This document shows, one piece after another, positions 3,773 to 58,674 of a stretch of DNA of 64,000 nucleotides. The position numbers were made by a program, and so were the translations under genes. Every line of letters begins with the position of its first letter. Position 1 is the first letter of the stretch. The notes under the pieces were generated by a model. That model was not told the DNA's origin and did not search any database. It was given only the letters and a program-made list of their open reading frames with translations. This DNA is from Sulfuricurvum sp. (GTDB lineage: Bacteria; Campylobacterota; Campylobacteria; Campylobacterales; Sulfurimonadaceae): NCBI RefSeq assembly GCF_028681615.1, contig NZ_JAQUHV010000001.1:434001-498000 (forward strand), written 5' to 3'.

Positions 3773-4612
3773 CTACCTCTTCGGATTGGATTTACGGCGA
3801 GTAATAATCAATTTATCACTTGCTTTCTTCTTACGTGTTTTAGCACCTTTAGTCGGTTTACCCCACGGAGTAACCGGGTGACGTCCTGAATTCGTTTTAC
3901 CTTCACCACCACCGTGCGGGTGATCGATAGGGTTCATCGCAGAACCACGCGTTTGAGGACGGATACCCATGTGACGTGTACGTCCAGCTTTACCAAGAAC
4001 GATGTTGATGTACTCTTCGTTACCGACAGTACCGACAGTCGCCATACATTCACCCAAAACATAACGCATTTCACTAGATGGAAGACGTACAGATACATAC
4101 TTGCCTTCACGACCCATGATTTGTGCAGATGTTCCGGCTGAACGAACGATTTGTCCGCCTTTACCCGGTTTAAGCTCGATATTGTGAACCGTTGTCCCGA
4201 CAGGGATGTTCATCAATTTCATCGCGTTACCCGCTTTAATATCCAATCCGCTTTCAGCAGAAGCGATAACATCACCTACTACCAAACCTTTAGGTTGGAG
4301 GATGTAACGTTTGTCACCGTCTACGTAGTTGATAAGAGCGATACGGCAGTTACGGTATGGATCGTATTCAATTGCAGCAACAGTTCCGGTAACACCGAAT
4401 TTGTTACGTTTGAAATCGATGATACGGTAAAGCTTTTTAGCTCCCGCTTCTTTATGACGAGATGTGATACGACCGTTGTTGTTACGTCCGGCAGCTGCAG
4501 GAAGTTTGATCAACAAAGAACGAACAGACGCTTTTGCCGTGATGTCCGAGTTGTCAACGTTTGTATAGAAACGTCGGCTCGGGGTGGTTGGTTTATACGT
4601 TTTGATCGCCAT
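3773..4612 (-). CDS. rplB: 50S ribosomal protein L2
   Basis: L2, 279 residues, near the peptidyl transferase centre and needed for subunit joining. The conserved C-terminal [15 protein letters not shown], containing the functionally important His, is intact, as is the [12 protein letters not shown]-binding patch. Start at 4612 gives [14 protein letters not shown]. It is separated from rplW by one base. Confidence 0.98.
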
Positions 4613-53199: not shown

Positions 53200-53284
53200 G
53201 CGGATGTGGTGAAATTGGTAGACACGCCAGACTTAGGATCTGGTGCCTAACGGTGTGAAGGTTCAAGTCCTTTCATCCGCACCA
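53200..53284 (+). tRNA. tRNA-Leu (TAG), target of integration
   Basis: Class II tRNA, 85 bases, with acceptor GCGGATG/CATCCGC, anticodon loop CTTAGGA (TAG, Leu CTA) and a variable arm GCC-TAAC-GGT. Encoded CCA. Bases 53225-53284 form the left att repeat of the inserted element, so the 3' part of the gene was replaced on integration without losing function. Confidence 0.95.
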
Positions 53285-53287
53285 TCA
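53225..53287 (+). repeat. attL, 63-bp direct repeat
   Basis: Left att copy, within tRNA-Leu. It is 60/63 identical to 58612-58674; the three differences sit in the TAAC loop of the variable arm. Confidence 0.9.
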
Positions 53288-53294
53288 ATCGATA

Positions 53295-53306
53295 AACCCC
53301 TATTTT
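53295..53306 (+). repeat. 12-bp terminal inverted copy, left
   Basis: AACCCCTATTTT, the reverse complement of 58565-58576. It lies 7 bases inside attL. Its role is unknown; an integrase or excisionase site is possible. Confidence 0.5.
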
Positions 53307-53369: not shown

Positions 53370-53415
53370 GGGTTACGGTTTGGGTTACGGTTTTCCCTAA
53401 TAATTCATAATAAAT
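53370..53415 (+). repeat. 46-bp direct repeat, left arm
   Basis: Identical to 58489-58534 over 46 bases. It begins with a tandem GGGTTACGGTTT unit (two copies) and continues with CCCTAATAATTCATAATAAA. It lies about 80 bases inside attL; I interpret it as an arm-type integrase binding site. Confidence 0.75.
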
Positions 53416-53509
53416 CAGCGTAAAATCTCTTTTTATCTCGTTACCTTTTGAAACGCGTCTCATCTATTTCCATATTTATTTCGATGTATTATTAAGTTAT
53501 ACTAGACGC

Positions 53510-54241
53510 ATGGAAATTTTCATTTTATTTTTTTTATTGTCTCTTGGGGCTTGGATTTTATTCAAGAATAAAAAAGCACCTATTGAAGTTACGAATATAC
53601 AAAGAAGTACGTCCACTAATAAGCTCAATAGTCAAAACTATGCTGCTTATAAAGAGTTCCAAGATGTAATCATTGGCTACATGGCTTCACCAACACTAAA
53701 TGATTCATATTTTTCTCTTGAGTCCTTAAACAACTATACAAAAATTTATCATACGCCCGATGAAGTGCCCCTGCAACCTACTGAATGCGTTGTCCCAGTC
53801 ACAAAACTTTATGATCCTTTAAAAAAGTCATTTTTGCCATATTCCCTTTTAGGTGTCAAGGGTAATAGCAATGGGAAATTTTCTAGTGAAGTTTTTTATC
53901 AATTTTTAATTTCACTGTACACCTATGTTTGGATTGATAAGGAATATGGAGATACTAAGTGGAAAATGGAAATGCTAGATTCTTTCTACAAATCATCACC
54001 TGAATATTCATCAATAAAACAGCATATTTTTGGCAACAAACCAATATCAAAAGTTTGGGCGAAATGGGAGCTTTCTAAAATTAGCGGAATTGGAGATAAA
54101 ACAGCCGATCTTCTTATTGAAAACAAAGTTTATTGTCTTGGTGATCTTATCGAATGTTCTGACCAAAAGCTCAAAGATTTTGGATGTAACAAGTGCATCA
54201 AAATCAAGAAAGAAATGCTTGAAAATGGAGTTAGAGGCTGA
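53510..54241 (+). CDS. Membrane-anchored protein with C-terminal helix-hairpin-helix
   Basis: A 243-residue protein of unknown function in the left part of the element. The N-terminus is a membrane helix (MEIFILFFLLSLGAWILF). The middle (about 40-175) is not recognised. The C-terminus has a helix-hairpin-helix-like segment (SKISGIGDKTADLLIENK, about 190-207), typical of DNA binding. It is the only plus-strand gene in the element, AT-rich by eye, and could be cargo. No clear ribosome site precedes the ATG. Confidence 0.6.
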   Translation: MEIFILFFLLSLGAWILFKNKKAPIEVTNIQRSTSTNKLNSQNYAAYKEFQDVIIGYMASPTLNDSYFSLESLNNYTKIYHTPDEVPLQPTECVVPVTKLYDPLKKSFLPYSLLGVKGNSNGKFSSEVFYQFLISLYTYVWIDKEYGDTKWKMEMLDSFYKSSPEYSSIKQHIFGNKPISKVWAKWELSKISGIGDKTADLLIENKVYCLGDLIECSDQKLKDFGCNKCIKIKKEMLENGVRG

Positions 54242-54275
54242 AATATACCCTTTTATAAGGCTTCTATGTTACATT

Positions 54276-54593
54276 TTACTTTAATGACTTTATCCCCATT
54301 GATCGCATCATCTCTTTATAATCCTTCTTGGATACAAAAACGTGATTATCGATCATTTTAAAAATAGAGTTCACCATATTCATGTCAGTAACAAATCTCA
54401 TCTTATCATTAATACTCATTGGATAGACAACATCATCAAGCCAAAATCTAAGATTATAAAGTATTTCAGCTTGAAGCCGTAAAAGTGAAACATCACTCAC
54501 CCCTATCTCTATTTTGGTTTTGGATAGGTTGAGAGGCTTAAACGGCTTGATTTTGGGTAACTCTTGGATAAATTCCAGTTTATTCAATCTCAT
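54276..54593 (-). CDS. Hypothetical element protein
   Basis: A 105-residue protein (MRLNKLEFIQELPKIKPFKP...), predicted mostly helical, not recognised. It starts inside the end of the HTH gene (14-base overlap), so it depends on that gene for translation. It is last of the element's main minus-strand run. Confidence 0.5.
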   Translation of the reverse strand: MRLNKLEFIQELPKIKPFKPLNLSKTKIEIGVSDVSLLRLQAEILYNLRFWLDDVVYPMSINDKMRFVTDMNMVNSIFKMIDNHVFVSKKDYKEMMRSMGIKSLK

Positions 54594-54999
54594 TGAGTTT
54601 GACCGTTATCGCTTCTTTTTTACCCGTGTATTCGCACGTAGCGACCAAGCCCGTATCAATGAAAGAGGTTTGTTTCTCTATCCGTTCTAGTTGACTTATA
54701 ATATCATTCCGCACCGTTGCAAGGTCTTTTAATGTTGCCCCAGTGAAGTCAAAATTCTCTATTGCATCATCGATCTTTTTTAAATGCTTCAAGAGCTGCT
54801 CATATTTTGCCTTGACTGTAAATTGATATGTTTCTTTGAGAGTTGCCAGTGATTGGAATTTCATATCATTCAACTCATCTTGGAACAATCGCCCCCACTG
54901 TATTAGGGTAGGCTTCGAGGTCTTTAACTCTATAACTATTTTGTCAAAGCTCAAACCACTCGCACGTAACTGTAAAAACTTCTTTTGTTTTTCGTTCAT
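54580..54999 (-). CDS. HTH protein, terminase-small-subunit-like in style
   Basis: A 139-residue protein with ATG 54999 preceded by GAGGAGA. An N-terminal helix-turn-helix (KQKKFLQLRASGLSFDKIVI, then TSKPTLIQWGR) is followed by a long helical region likely to form a coiled coil (YEQLLKHLKKIDDAIENF). The arrangement recalls the DNA-binding part of phage terminase small subunits or HTH_23-like transposon regulators. I cannot assign it firmly. Confidence 0.5.
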   Translation of the reverse strand: MNEKQKKFLQLRASGLSFDKIVIELKTSKPTLIQWGRLFQDELNDMKFQSLATLKETYQFTVKAKYEQLLKHLKKIDDAIENFDFTGATLKDLATVRNDIISQLERIEKQTSFIDTGLVATCEYTGKKEAITVKLNEIE

Positions 55000-55105
55000 T
55001 TTCTCCTCTTTTTGCCGTTTTTTCTTGTACAAACTCACACCCCCTATAAATCCCGATGGAGACGGAGTTTCAAGGATGTTTTACTGAGCCGTTTTTCTTA
55101 TACAC

Positions 55106-55825
55106 TTAACGCGCGTGAGACTTACGGATATAAGCGTCTGCTTTGAGCATAGCCGATTCGATCATCTCCGACGGTTTGAGAGCTTCGCCATTGCGCCAGT
55201 ATTGCCCTTTAAATGAATACTCAACACGGGTTAATGGATAACCCAACTTATTTGCTTCTTGCTTATCGTATGCCCTTACTTGGACGTACTGAGGCTTTGG
55301 AGGCTGATAGTAAACGGTTGTTTTTTTAAATACTGCTGTACCTTGCCTTTTGCATAGTGACCTATGATCTCTCGTATTGGAATAATCGCACCACTTTAAC
55401 CCGACTAAATCGATACAACGATCAAAGCGGGATAACTTGATAGGCTCATCCCATACGCTCACAAATTCATCCAGTATCGCGCGTCTTTGGATTGCTCCAT
55501 CATTCAAGGCGAGTTCTGTTTTCTCATACTGCTGTAATCCATGAAAATGAAGCTCTAAGCCTTTTCCGTTTCCGTACCTAATCATAGGTATGGACTGCCC
55601 CCTTTTGTGATGCAAGAGAGCTACAAACACCGCCGACTTTGGTAATGAACGCATCATTAACCGCCTCCATTCTCGTTTCTGTTCTGCTGAAGGTCTGATC
55701 GGTGAACATTTCATGATTTCAAGCTGACCGCCTAAAATCTCCTCGATCTTCTTTGCTGTGTATAAATCTGCGTCGCCAGTCGATACTTGCAAGACGACGC
55801 TATCAATAGCCGTCACCCGTTGCAT
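55106..55825 (-). CDS. Rep_trans-like replication initiation protein
   Basis: A 239-residue protein. SRFDRCIDLVG (about 132-142) and RAYDKQEANKLGYPLTRVEYS (about 195-215) match the pattern of the replication initiation factor family PF02486, RxDxxxD and YDKxxE...RvE, found in filamentous phages and rolling-circle elements. It probably nicks a plus origin or primes replication of the excised circle. The catalytic Tyr is not certain from sequence. The 67-base gap to the gene upstream and the 106 bases downstream are candidate origin regions. Confidence 0.6.
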   Translation of the reverse strand: MQRVTAIDSVVLQVSTGDADLYTAKKIEEILGGQLEIMKCSPIRPSAEQKREWRRLMMRSLPKSAVFVALLHHKRGQSIPMIRYGNGKGLELHFHGLQQYEKTELALNDGAIQRRAILDEFVSVWDEPIKLSRFDRCIDLVGLKWCDYSNTRDHRSLCKRQGTAVFKKTTVYYQPPKPQYVQVRAYDKQEANKLGYPLTRVEYSFKGQYWRNGEALKPSEMIESAMLKADAYIRKSHAR

Positions 55826-55892
55826 ATTTAGCGCGGCGGGGGTATAATGTCGGTATCAGATTTCCTGCATCACTCCTGCCGCTATCCTATGG

Positions 55893-56123
55893 TTAGTCGG
55901 CATATCCTAAAAACTTCATAGCCTTTTCTCGATCATTGATTGATCTTAATTTGACCGTTGCCTCTCCAAGTTCCGCCCATCTATCTTTCAAAATTCCTTT
56001 ATTTACTAAATCACACATATACTGATTAGCATTAGAAATGTAATTAAAATCTGTCGCAGTTTTTTCACCATGATTGAATATGGTTTCTAAGATATGGTAC
56101 TTATGAGATTTACGTTTACTCAT
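55893..56123 (-). CDS. Small element protein, possible winged helix
   Basis: A 76-residue protein (MSKRKSHKYHILETIFNHGEK...). The sequence from HKYHILETIF to KDRWAELGE resembles a small winged-helix unit. Its function is unknown. It starts by a 4-base overlap with the gene upstream. Confidence 0.5.
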   Translation of the reverse strand: MSKRKSHKYHILETIFNHGEKTATDFNYISNANQYMCDLVNKGILKDRWAELGEATVKLRSINDREKAMKFLGYAD

Positions 56124-56305
56124 TCCACACCGCCTTCTATGCGTTGAAGCTCACTATAAACCTCAGCCAGTACCTCGTTAGTGGGAATGTTCCCGCCAAA
56201 TAGGTTAGCAACTGCTTTTAGCACCAAGTAATCAAAACACTCTTGACCGCTAAAGTTATTAGCGTGATCGATTTCATCTATAAAGGTCTGTAGCTCTGTT
56301 CTCAT
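56120..56305 (-). CDS. Small acidic element protein
   Basis: A 61-residue acidic protein (MRTELQTFIDEIDHANNFSG...), not recognised. It overlaps the AlpA-like stop by 4 bases (ATGA) and the following gene by 4, so all three are translated in a coupled way. Confidence 0.5.
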   Translation of the reverse strand: MRTELQTFIDEIDHANNFSGQECFDYLVLKAVANLFGGNIPTNEVLAEVYSELQRIEGGVE

Positions 56306-56478
56306 GCAGCAACCTTATGACTGTCAATCCATGCATTCAATTCGTCACGGTCGAAATAAACCCGCTTCCCTATTTTAATAAATGGGATGGATCTGTCAAA
56401 AATCATCTTTCGTAAAAATGAAACTAATAGTCCAGTGTGTTCGGACGCCTCTTGGATGGTTTGTAAACGTTTTGTCAT
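56302..56478 (-). CDS. AlpA-like/excisionase HTH regulator
   Basis: A 58-residue protein translated from ATG 56478: MTKRLQTIQEASEHTGLLVS, then FLRKMIFDRSIPFIKIGKRV and YFDRDELNAWIDSHKVAA. The pattern is the HTH_17 excisionase domain (TIQEASEHTG...IGKRVYFDRDELNAWI). In phages and satellites such proteins control the integrase or act as excisionase. It lies between the integrase and Rep genes, as in satellites. Start follows AAGGCTCACAA. Confidence 0.75.
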   Translation of the reverse strand: MTKRLQTIQEASEHTGLLVSFLRKMIFDRSIPFIKIGKRVYFDRDELNAWIDSHKVAA

Positions 56479-56547
56479 TTGTGAGCCTTTACGACTCGGT
56501 ACCGCGTCTTATTATGATTACTTAAGTATTGATATTATGCGTCAGAA

Positions 56548-56585
56548 GCAATGGGCTTAGGGGTACTTTTTTTTGCACCCTAACG
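56548..56585. terminator. Imperfect hairpin after the 220-residue element gene
   Basis: TTAGGGGTAC and GCACCCTAA flank an 8-T run, just beyond the gene ending at 56594 (minus strand) and ahead of the alpA gene. It could end the integrase transcript. The loop contains the U-run, so a classic terminator is uncertain. Confidence 0.35.
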
Positions 56586-56593
56586 GGGGTTAA

Positions 56594-57256
56594 TTATCCA
56601 GCTTTATTTGCTGAATATCTCACATGAAGTTCTACGGCTGTCTGGTATTGAAACTCCATTTTGAGGAAATTATTTATTTCTATACCTTCTTTATATTTAT
56701 GATCGTATTGGAAATATCGTTCCAGTAGTTCATTAACTACATTCAAAATCTTTTTAGTAGGTCTAATCTTATCCGTTAATTCTACGCTCAAATATGATGC
56801 AAGAAATAGAAAATTATCGTATATTCTATTTTTAGTAAGTTGCTTTAATTTCTCATATTTAGTGATCTTAGCTACAAACGATTGCAATGCCTTTGCTGAT
56901 TGTTCATCGCCCATATTCTTTGCAAGGTCTATTAGGTCGCTTGCGTTGTTGATATGTGTATTAAGAAGTTTGCTTTTTTTCTTACCATTCCACTTTTCCA
57001 TCGGTACAACGCGCGTGTTGTAATAGTGAAATAATAAATCAGTGTATTCTATAACGGGTAATAGATTAACCAGCATCTCATCATCTATGCAGGACGTTCG
57101 GCATTGTAACGCCCGTTTCAGTGCATCGGCTCTAAGGTTAGATTGATACAACCCTTCATCGTTCCATTCGGCTACAGAATCGGGAATATTATCTCGACAT
57201 ATAAACCCTTTGGGGAATGAGGCTTGAAACTGATCTATAATTTCATTGTATCCCAT
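56594..57256 (-). CDS. Hypothetical protein downstream of integrase
   Basis: A 220-residue, mainly helical soluble protein, not recognised (MGYNEIIDQFQASFPKGFIC; NRIYDNFLFLASYLSVEL). It begins 2 bases after the integrase stop, so it is cotranscribed with it. Confidence 0.55.
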   Translation of the reverse strand: MGYNEIIDQFQASFPKGFICRDNIPDSVAEWNDEGLYQSNLRADALKRALQCRTSCIDDEMLVNLLPVIEYTDLLFHYYNTRVVPMEKWNGKKKSKLLNTHINNASDLIDLAKNMGDEQSAKALQSFVAKITKYEKLKQLTKNRIYDNFLFLASYLSVELTDKIRPTKKILNVVNELLERYFQYDHKYKEGIEINNFLKMEFQYQTAVELHVRYSANKAG

Positions 57257-57258
57257 AA

Positions 57259-58467
57259 TTACCCCTCCACTTCTGCATCTATTACAACGGTAGCCTCTAC
57301 ACTCATAAACTGATTAAGCACCGTTTCGACTACATGGGATTTTGTTGCAAGATTGATATTCGAATAACGTGCCGTTGTTGATTGATCGGAATGTCCTAAT
57401 GCTTGACCGATTGAATGGAGACTTAACCCAGCGTTGGCGGCGGCGTATCCAATGAGGTGACGTGTGTCATGTATCCGCATCTTTTCTATTCCAGCGGTTT
57501 TGAGTAATTCCGCCCACTCATGGCGCGGGTTGGATCGCTTTACTGCTCCCCGTGTTGGTGTGAACACTAAGCCCTCTTTTTGTATTCCCATAAGCTCCAG
57601 CGCATTAAGTAAAATCAGCATTAACGGATAAGTCTCATTTCGTCGTGCCTTGTTTGTCTCTGATGGAATCTCATAATAACCCGCTTCGATATGTATCCAC
57701 TCCCAGCGCAGTGATAGGACTTCATTCAATCGTCGCCCAGTAATTAAAAAGGAGAATAGCGCCCTATAAGTGGGATCGGTGTGAGTGATGATAGCTGTAA
57801 TGAGTTTACGCGCTTTGTCGGATTCGATCTCGAAATATTGCTTATTATCATATCTTGGAACGCTCAATTTTTTAGCAGGGTTTTTGACAATATAATCATG
57901 CTCGATTGCATACTCAAACATCGGACGGCAATAATCGACGACGGTATCCGCTGTCCTCGTTGCTTTGCCTAATTCTAAAATAGTGTTGATAATCTTCTGC
58001 AAGTGGGCGGCAGTGATTTTCTTGATTTCAGTTTGTCCGATAACGGGACTAATCCATTTTTCGACAAAATAGCGGATCTCTTTTAAATACTTAGGACTGC
58101 TTTTGTGTGTTTTGCTTTCCAGATACTCATCGAATAATTTATCAAACGTAATCTTTCGGACGGCTTGGAGTGTACCGTCTTTAAACGCGGTCGCCGTCTG
58201 CTCTAGTCCATTCGCTTTGAGTTCGTCAAGTGTTTTGCGTAGCGTTCGTGATCGGTCGGTTATGGTAACGGTTCGACGTGATGAACTTTTGCCATTATGC
58301 ACCCGTATCACCACTTTAAACGGCTTATCTTTTGGAAGTCGTTTTGATAGCTCTTCGACGGTGATCTCTTTTACTTCATCGAATAGATTGCTTTCATCTT
58401 TGAATAGCATCCCTTTGTAATCTGTAATCTTGATCGCGTTGTCTGTCGTTGCCATTGTCGCCGTCAT
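57259..58467 (-). CDS. Tyrosine recombinase integrase
   Basis: A 402-residue site-specific integrase. The catalytic set is visible: Arg246 in TGRRLNE, Lys273 (TNKAR), His333-x-x-Arg336 in HDTRH, His359 in LGHS and the nucleophile Tyr368 (ARYSN). The N-terminal part (about 20-180) is the arm- and core-binding domain. It is the rightmost gene, transcribed inward from attR, with the 46-bp repeat 21 bases upstream, so self-control through this repeat is likely. Confidence 0.92.
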   Translation of the reverse strand: MTATMATTDNAIKITDYKGMLFKDESNLFDEVKEITVEELSKRLPKDKPFKVVIRVHNGKSSSRRTVTITDRSRTLRKTLDELKANGLEQTATAFKDGTLQAVRKITFDKLFDEYLESKTHKSSPKYLKEIRYFVEKWISPVIGQTEIKKITAAHLQKIINTILELGKATRTADTVVDYCRPMFEYAIEHDYIVKNPAKKLSVPRYDNKQYFEIESDKARKLITAIITHTDPTYRALFSFLITGRRLNEVLSLRWEWIHIEAGYYEIPSETNKARRNETYPLMLILLNALELMGIQKEGLVFTPTRGAVKRSNPRHEWAELLKTAGIEKMRIHDTRHLIGYAAANAGLSLHSIGQALGHSDQSTTARYSNINLATKSHVVETVLNQFMSVEATVVIDAEVEG

Positions 58468-58488
58468 TGTTTGAGCTTATTAATATAA

Positions 58489-58534
58489 GGGTTACGGTTT
58501 GGGTTACGGTTTTCCCTAATAATTCATAATAAAT
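58489..58534 (+). repeat. 46-bp direct repeat, right arm
   Basis: A perfect copy of 53370-53415, in the same orientation and 77 bases inside attR. It also forms the upstream region of the integrase gene. Confidence 0.75.
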
Positions 58535-58564: not shown

Positions 58565-58576
58565 AAAATAGGGGTT
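58565..58576 (+). repeat. 12-bp terminal inverted copy, right
   Basis: AAAATAGGGGTT, the reverse complement of 53295-53306. Confidence 0.5.
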
Positions 58577-58611: not shown

Positions 58612-58674
58612 CGCCAGACTTAGGATCTGGTGCCGCAAGGTGTGAAGGTTCAAGTCCTTTCATCCGCACCATCA
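58612..58674 (+). repeat. attR, 63-bp direct repeat
   Basis: A partial tRNA-Leu copy: it lacks the acceptor 5' half, so it is not a functional tRNA. It has GCAA where tRNA-Leu has TAAC in the variable arm. The crossover point lies within this repeat. Confidence 0.9.

Follow-up and report, generated by a model that had tools for sequence, protein, structure and literature searches.

The question raised by this locus is what function is served by a long direct repeat lying just inside both ends of a 5.4-kb element, which sits in the 3' part of a tRNA-Leu(TAG) gene within the 64-kb stretch of DNA analysed here (the window). A sequence-only reading had taken the two copies for arm-type integrase sites and had supposed that the right one could also be autoregulatory. 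The coordinates of the relevant features are collected in Table 1. Besides a tyrosine integrase at the right end, reading left, and an HTH_17 excisionase-like protein, the element contains several short genes without assigned function and a 243-aa protein (53510-54241, plus strand), the sole large gene in the opposite direction, which gives a weak helix-hairpin-helix match and is possibly cargo. A 152-aa HTH protein (54580-55038, minus strand) weakly matches a phage large terminase family and might belong to a phage satellite as its small-terminase-like gene. No match to the element was found in the plasmid collection, and the comparison of empty sites within the genus demonstrated that the tRNA-Leu locus of several relatives is taken by other elements.

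Table 1. Positions, within the window, of the integration target, the att core copies, the putative arm-type sites and the recombination genes
Feature	Position	Strand	Basis or remark
tRNA-Leu (TAG), intact, integration target	53200..53284	+	ARAGORN
Left att core copy, 63 bp, anticodon stem to tRNA 3' end	53225..53287	+	Direct repeat with 58612-58674, 95% identical
Left arm-type pair (putative), 2 x GGGTTACGGTTT, pitch 12 bp	53370..53393	+	Same place as in other two-ended elements
Left 22-bp extension	53394..53415	+	Identical to right copy, outside the conserved tandem design
HTH_17 / excisionase-family protein, candidate Xis	56302..56478	-	PF12728 4.6e-9; TIGR01764 4.6e-10
Tyrosine integrase	57259..58467	-	PF00589, PF22022, PF14659; alignment with relatives
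Right arm-type pair (putative), 2 x GGGTTACGGTTT, directly upstream of int	58489..58512	+	
Right 22-bp extension	58513..58534	+	Carries TATTAT on the int strand
Right att core copy, 63 bp, tRNA-Leu 3' part	58612..58674	+	Direct repeat with 53225-53287, 95% identical

The 46-nt direct repeat itself is real: positions 53370-53415 and 58489-58534, 5119 bp apart, are 100% identical in the same orientation, and a perfect match of this length inside 5.4 kb is not a product of chance. As had been noticed by eye, each copy starts with a tandem, namely two perfect GGGTTACGGTTT units, which are followed by TCCCTAATAATTCATAATAAAT; the 22 bp after the tandem are AT-rich, and no hairpin in the 46-mer rose above those of shuffled sequences. 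The distance of about 80 bases to the core was confirmed as well, since the left copy begins 83-86 bp past the tRNA 3' end/core and the right copy stops 77 bp short of the core. Nor is the repeat spread over the genome: the exact 12-mer GGGTTACGGTTT occurs four times in the entire 2.66 Mb, all four units being inside the element and none scattered in the chromosome, while every other match has a mismatch. Closer to the core, a perfect 12-bp inverted repeat, AACCCCTATTTT / AAAATAGGGGTT, was observed at 53295-53306 and 58565-58576; in the joined circle it flanks the att core, and similar CCTA-T-rich-AGG stretches are found near the core in many relatives.

Relatives of the integrase were sought in the same order of bacteria, Campylobacterales to judge by named records, and 79 genome stretches around them were examined, with 20 more added later to reach the far ends of the elements. 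A tandem direct repeat ahead of int recurs in these relatives with differing letters: the units between the int start and the tRNA fragment include, among others, GGGTACGGTTT, GGGTGACCAA, TTACCCCACTTT, TTTACCGCAA, AGGTGATACTTT and GGGTACACATTA, the motif type of the L046 integrase locus is GGGTACGG, and most tandems have a 12-bp pitch. The automatic tandem test was passed by 43 of the 75 integrase loci against 5 of the 627 other ORFs of the same loci, and the tandem upstream of the integrase reached a shuffle p<=0.01 in 49 of 76. About 40% of the integrases failed the automatic test; some pairs are degenerate, wider-spaced or invisible, and wrong start codons may be behind part of the failures.

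The same motif stands in direct orientation at both ends of 26 elements of 4.75-36.7 kb, the one in the window included; this set joins the elements that passed the strict test with those whose weaker pairs were read directly beside an independently found core. In the first, shorter stretches the far-end motif was detected in 10 elements, inverted in none, and each time beside a direct repeat fitting an att core. A strict scan of the longer stretches with each element's own unit yielded the direct orientation in 21/47 and the inverted one in 0/47, and with the units of other elements there were matches in 7 of 2,209 tests. The left pair is situated at a median of 61 bp inside the core in the 26 elements, usually at 25-105 bp; the distances of 2 and 4 bp (L058, L118) are artefactual, the core match there extending beyond the tRNA, and that of 217 bp (L111) stems from a duplicated tRNA end. 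Target genes include tRNA-Leu, tRNA-Glu and tRNA-Met, and the core of L131 and L146 is no recognised tRNA. End-to-end exact identity amounts to 9-31 bp in the other 25 two-ended elements versus 46 bp here, and the 22-bp extension is not common to the relatives; the arm sites proper would be the 24-bp tandem. Recent copying from one end to the other, or the presence of a further site, may account for the additional 22 bp.

Some loci display additional repeats. In L047 and L048 a second, different tandem (TTTGATGCCAT-like units twice) was read by eye just past the tRNA core; it suggests that the same tRNA hosts another element, as expected of arrays, and L042 has a comparable TTCTAACC pair. The end (4030-4283) of the 4283-bp contig of L045 holds, one after another, an arm pair, the tRNA core and a further GGGTACAA, as would be the case in an excised circle or at the junction of a tandem array; a search for terminal overlap of this contig found none.

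If these repeats are arm-type sites, the motif is predicted to track the N-terminal domain of the integrase. Approximately 100 residues, alignable among relatives, precede the SAM-like core-binding domain in this protein and are a candidate arm-binding domain. Among 51 integrases, motif distance correlated with N-terminal-domain distance (Mantel r 0.49; partial r 0.35 given the catalytic domain; both p 0.001 by permutation, values that are optimistic because related elements are non-independent samples), and the partial correlation with catalytic distance given the N-terminal domain was -0.05. The correlation thus fits arm-type sites. The single-sequence AlphaFold model of the integrase (mean pLDDT 36.5) was too poor to use. 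No relatives of the integrase were found in viral contigs, and among the matches listed phage integrases share at most about 27% identity with it.

A cruder but independent test was a scan of DNA alone, in which the pattern GGGTACGGTNNNGGGTACGGTTT was run against 84,980 genomes. It returned 15 matches, 11 of them beside tRNA genes or integrases. Six lie 50-66 bp past tRNA-Leu in loci of the Campylobacterota type, one of these being binned under another phylum, and five, from other phyla, are at tRNA ends or integrase genes (one at tRNA-Gly, one at a tRNA 3' end, two at apparent integrase starts and one at an integrase 3' end near a tRNA-like end). The rest comprise two matches within unrelated coding genes and two unexplained ones; the contexts of L175, L176, L179 and L184 were read by eye from the sequence. 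The window's own motif had no match in viral contigs or in the genome collection.

Taken together, the relatives strongly support, at the level of sequence comparison, the supposition that the repeats are arm-type sites: the motif is found at either end and oriented identically, its distance from the core is conserved, and its sequence is element-specific and tracks the integrase N-terminal domain. We consider it very probable that the repeats serve the tyrosine integrase of the element as its P and P' arm-type binding sites, and we infer integrase binding, a need of the sites for recombination and a bridging role. In the excised circle, the tRNA-Leu core would carry a tandem 12-bp pair on each side, the two pairs pointing the same way. 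The arm pairs would be bound by the N-terminal domain of the integrase and the tRNA core acted on by its core-binding and catalytic domains, and the small HTH_17 protein would assist excision. After integration one pair would be left at each end, the right one being in the int leader, and integrase bound there would probably damp its own expression.

As to this second role of the right copy, the supposed spacing of 21 bases upstream of int holds for the first possible start (58467), but the alignment with relatives favours the second Met (58455), at which the distance becomes 33 bp, and suggests that this is the true start. Where found, the tandem pair usually lies 4-45 bp before int, in the leader of nearly all the relatives having it. 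In 51 relatives TATAAT-like hexamers on the int strand, counted by hand, occur 15-30 bp before the pair at about twice the density (56 over 16 positions) seen further up (62 over 40). The idea of an autoregulatory site is made plausible by this position and by the precedent of IntS of ICEMlSymR7A, which represses its own expression (PMC11963761), but a search for a sigma-70-type promoter upstream of the right pair in this element gave no match, and the TATTAT at 58526-58531 on the int strand is a weak -10 candidate read from the sequence, without statistical support in this element. On balance, we give autoregulation of int by the right pair a little less than an even chance.

Other functions of the repeats have to be weighed against this evidence. 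That the sites belong to the excision factor (the HTH_17 protein) or to some other accessory DNA-bending protein, and not to the integrase, seems very unlikely to us. The element does encode a candidate Xis, and direct repeats near the core are a frequent form of Xis site in known systems; however, such sites usually occupy one arm, whereas the repeats here are on both, the tandems covary with the integrase N-terminal domain, and a search of the related loci at E<=1e-3 recovered the window's Xis-like protein in only about nine, two-ended tandems being far more widespread. The 12-bp tandem units also look like iterons, and a 239-aa protein (55106-55825, minus strand) has an RFDRCIDL-like stretch resembling that of some Rep proteins or replication initiators, so that replication iterons or rolling-circle origin sites for this Rep-like protein were another candidate. 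We regard it as extremely unlikely and rejected it for lack of linkage to a conserved replication gene: the protein belongs to no Pfam, PHROG or NCBIfam family and has a relative in one other locus only (L146, 26%), while the tandems occur in elements of up to 37 kb with unrelated gene content and are invariably positioned relative to the att core and int. No relative of the Rep-like protein was found in viral contigs, and its single-sequence AlphaFold model was too poor to use.

The length of the identity deserves separate consideration, because 46 bp exceed both what arm sites need and what any other element here displays. Perfect identity extending over 22 bp for which relatives show no conservation points to recent copying, or to gene conversion, between the ends, and the copies might accordingly be a recombination core themselves or a functionless leftover of an older duplication. 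Yet the 63-bp tRNA core repeat already delimits the element, and the 24-bp tandem recurs at the same place, with a different sequence, in many elements, a pattern that neither drift nor a single duplication would produce; such an origin is, in our estimation, exceedingly improbable. Because nearly all relatives with a tandem have it immediately ahead of int, one may also suppose that the right copy is no more than an int-promoter operator for a separate regulator, and that the left copy is a decoy. This supposition, the probability of which is practically negligible, was set aside, since in every case the distal copy goes with the att core, and the motif varies in step with the integrase domain.

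The arm-type sites proposed here are of an already known kind, and it is their regularity across an order of bacteria that is interesting; a limited literature search found no description of arm sites in Campylobacterales. We tentatively propose, with doubt slightly prevailing, that the integrases of the whole order, and some beyond it, share one attP design, i.e., a tRNA core flanked on either side by a direct pair of 12-bp pitch, of which the right one falls in the int leader, and that the 12-bp word is readable from, and perhaps predicted by, the N-terminal domain. If true, this would constitute a readable specificity code marking the two ends of mobile elements. From the motif immediately ahead of int, the far end of an element can be predicted without gene annotation, and matched pairs of integrase and motif would let the arm-binding code be worked out. 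A single repeat noticed by eye thereby becomes a family-wide, testable att architecture.

Integrases of the lambda Int type have arm-type (P) sites, and in mycobacteriophage L5 such sites are paired on either side of the core. The element described here resembles these systems in having short repeated sites on each side of the core, off the crossover and on the element side, and an integrase with an extra N-terminal region; with L5 it shares paired direct repeats on each arm. It differs in that its two pairs agree in sequence and orientation, in the near-constant 12-bp pitch, in the extension of the copies to 46 identical bases, and in that its arm sites are predicted. In the Mesorhizobium element ICEMlSymR7A, five arm-type motifs around the core (TGKTGGTATC) were experimentally tested (PMC11963761); arm-type motifs around the core and an integrase gene beside attP are common to both elements, whereas the motif and the number of sites differ, and ours are predicted from sequence. 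In Oenococcus prophages, 10-bp direct repeats on both arms of attP were proposed as arm-binding sites, and divergence of the integrase N-terminus was matched to different repeats (PMC8074189). That Gram-positive phage group possesses six unevenly spread repeats, in contrast to the regular tandem pair at each end of the elements in Campylobacterales.
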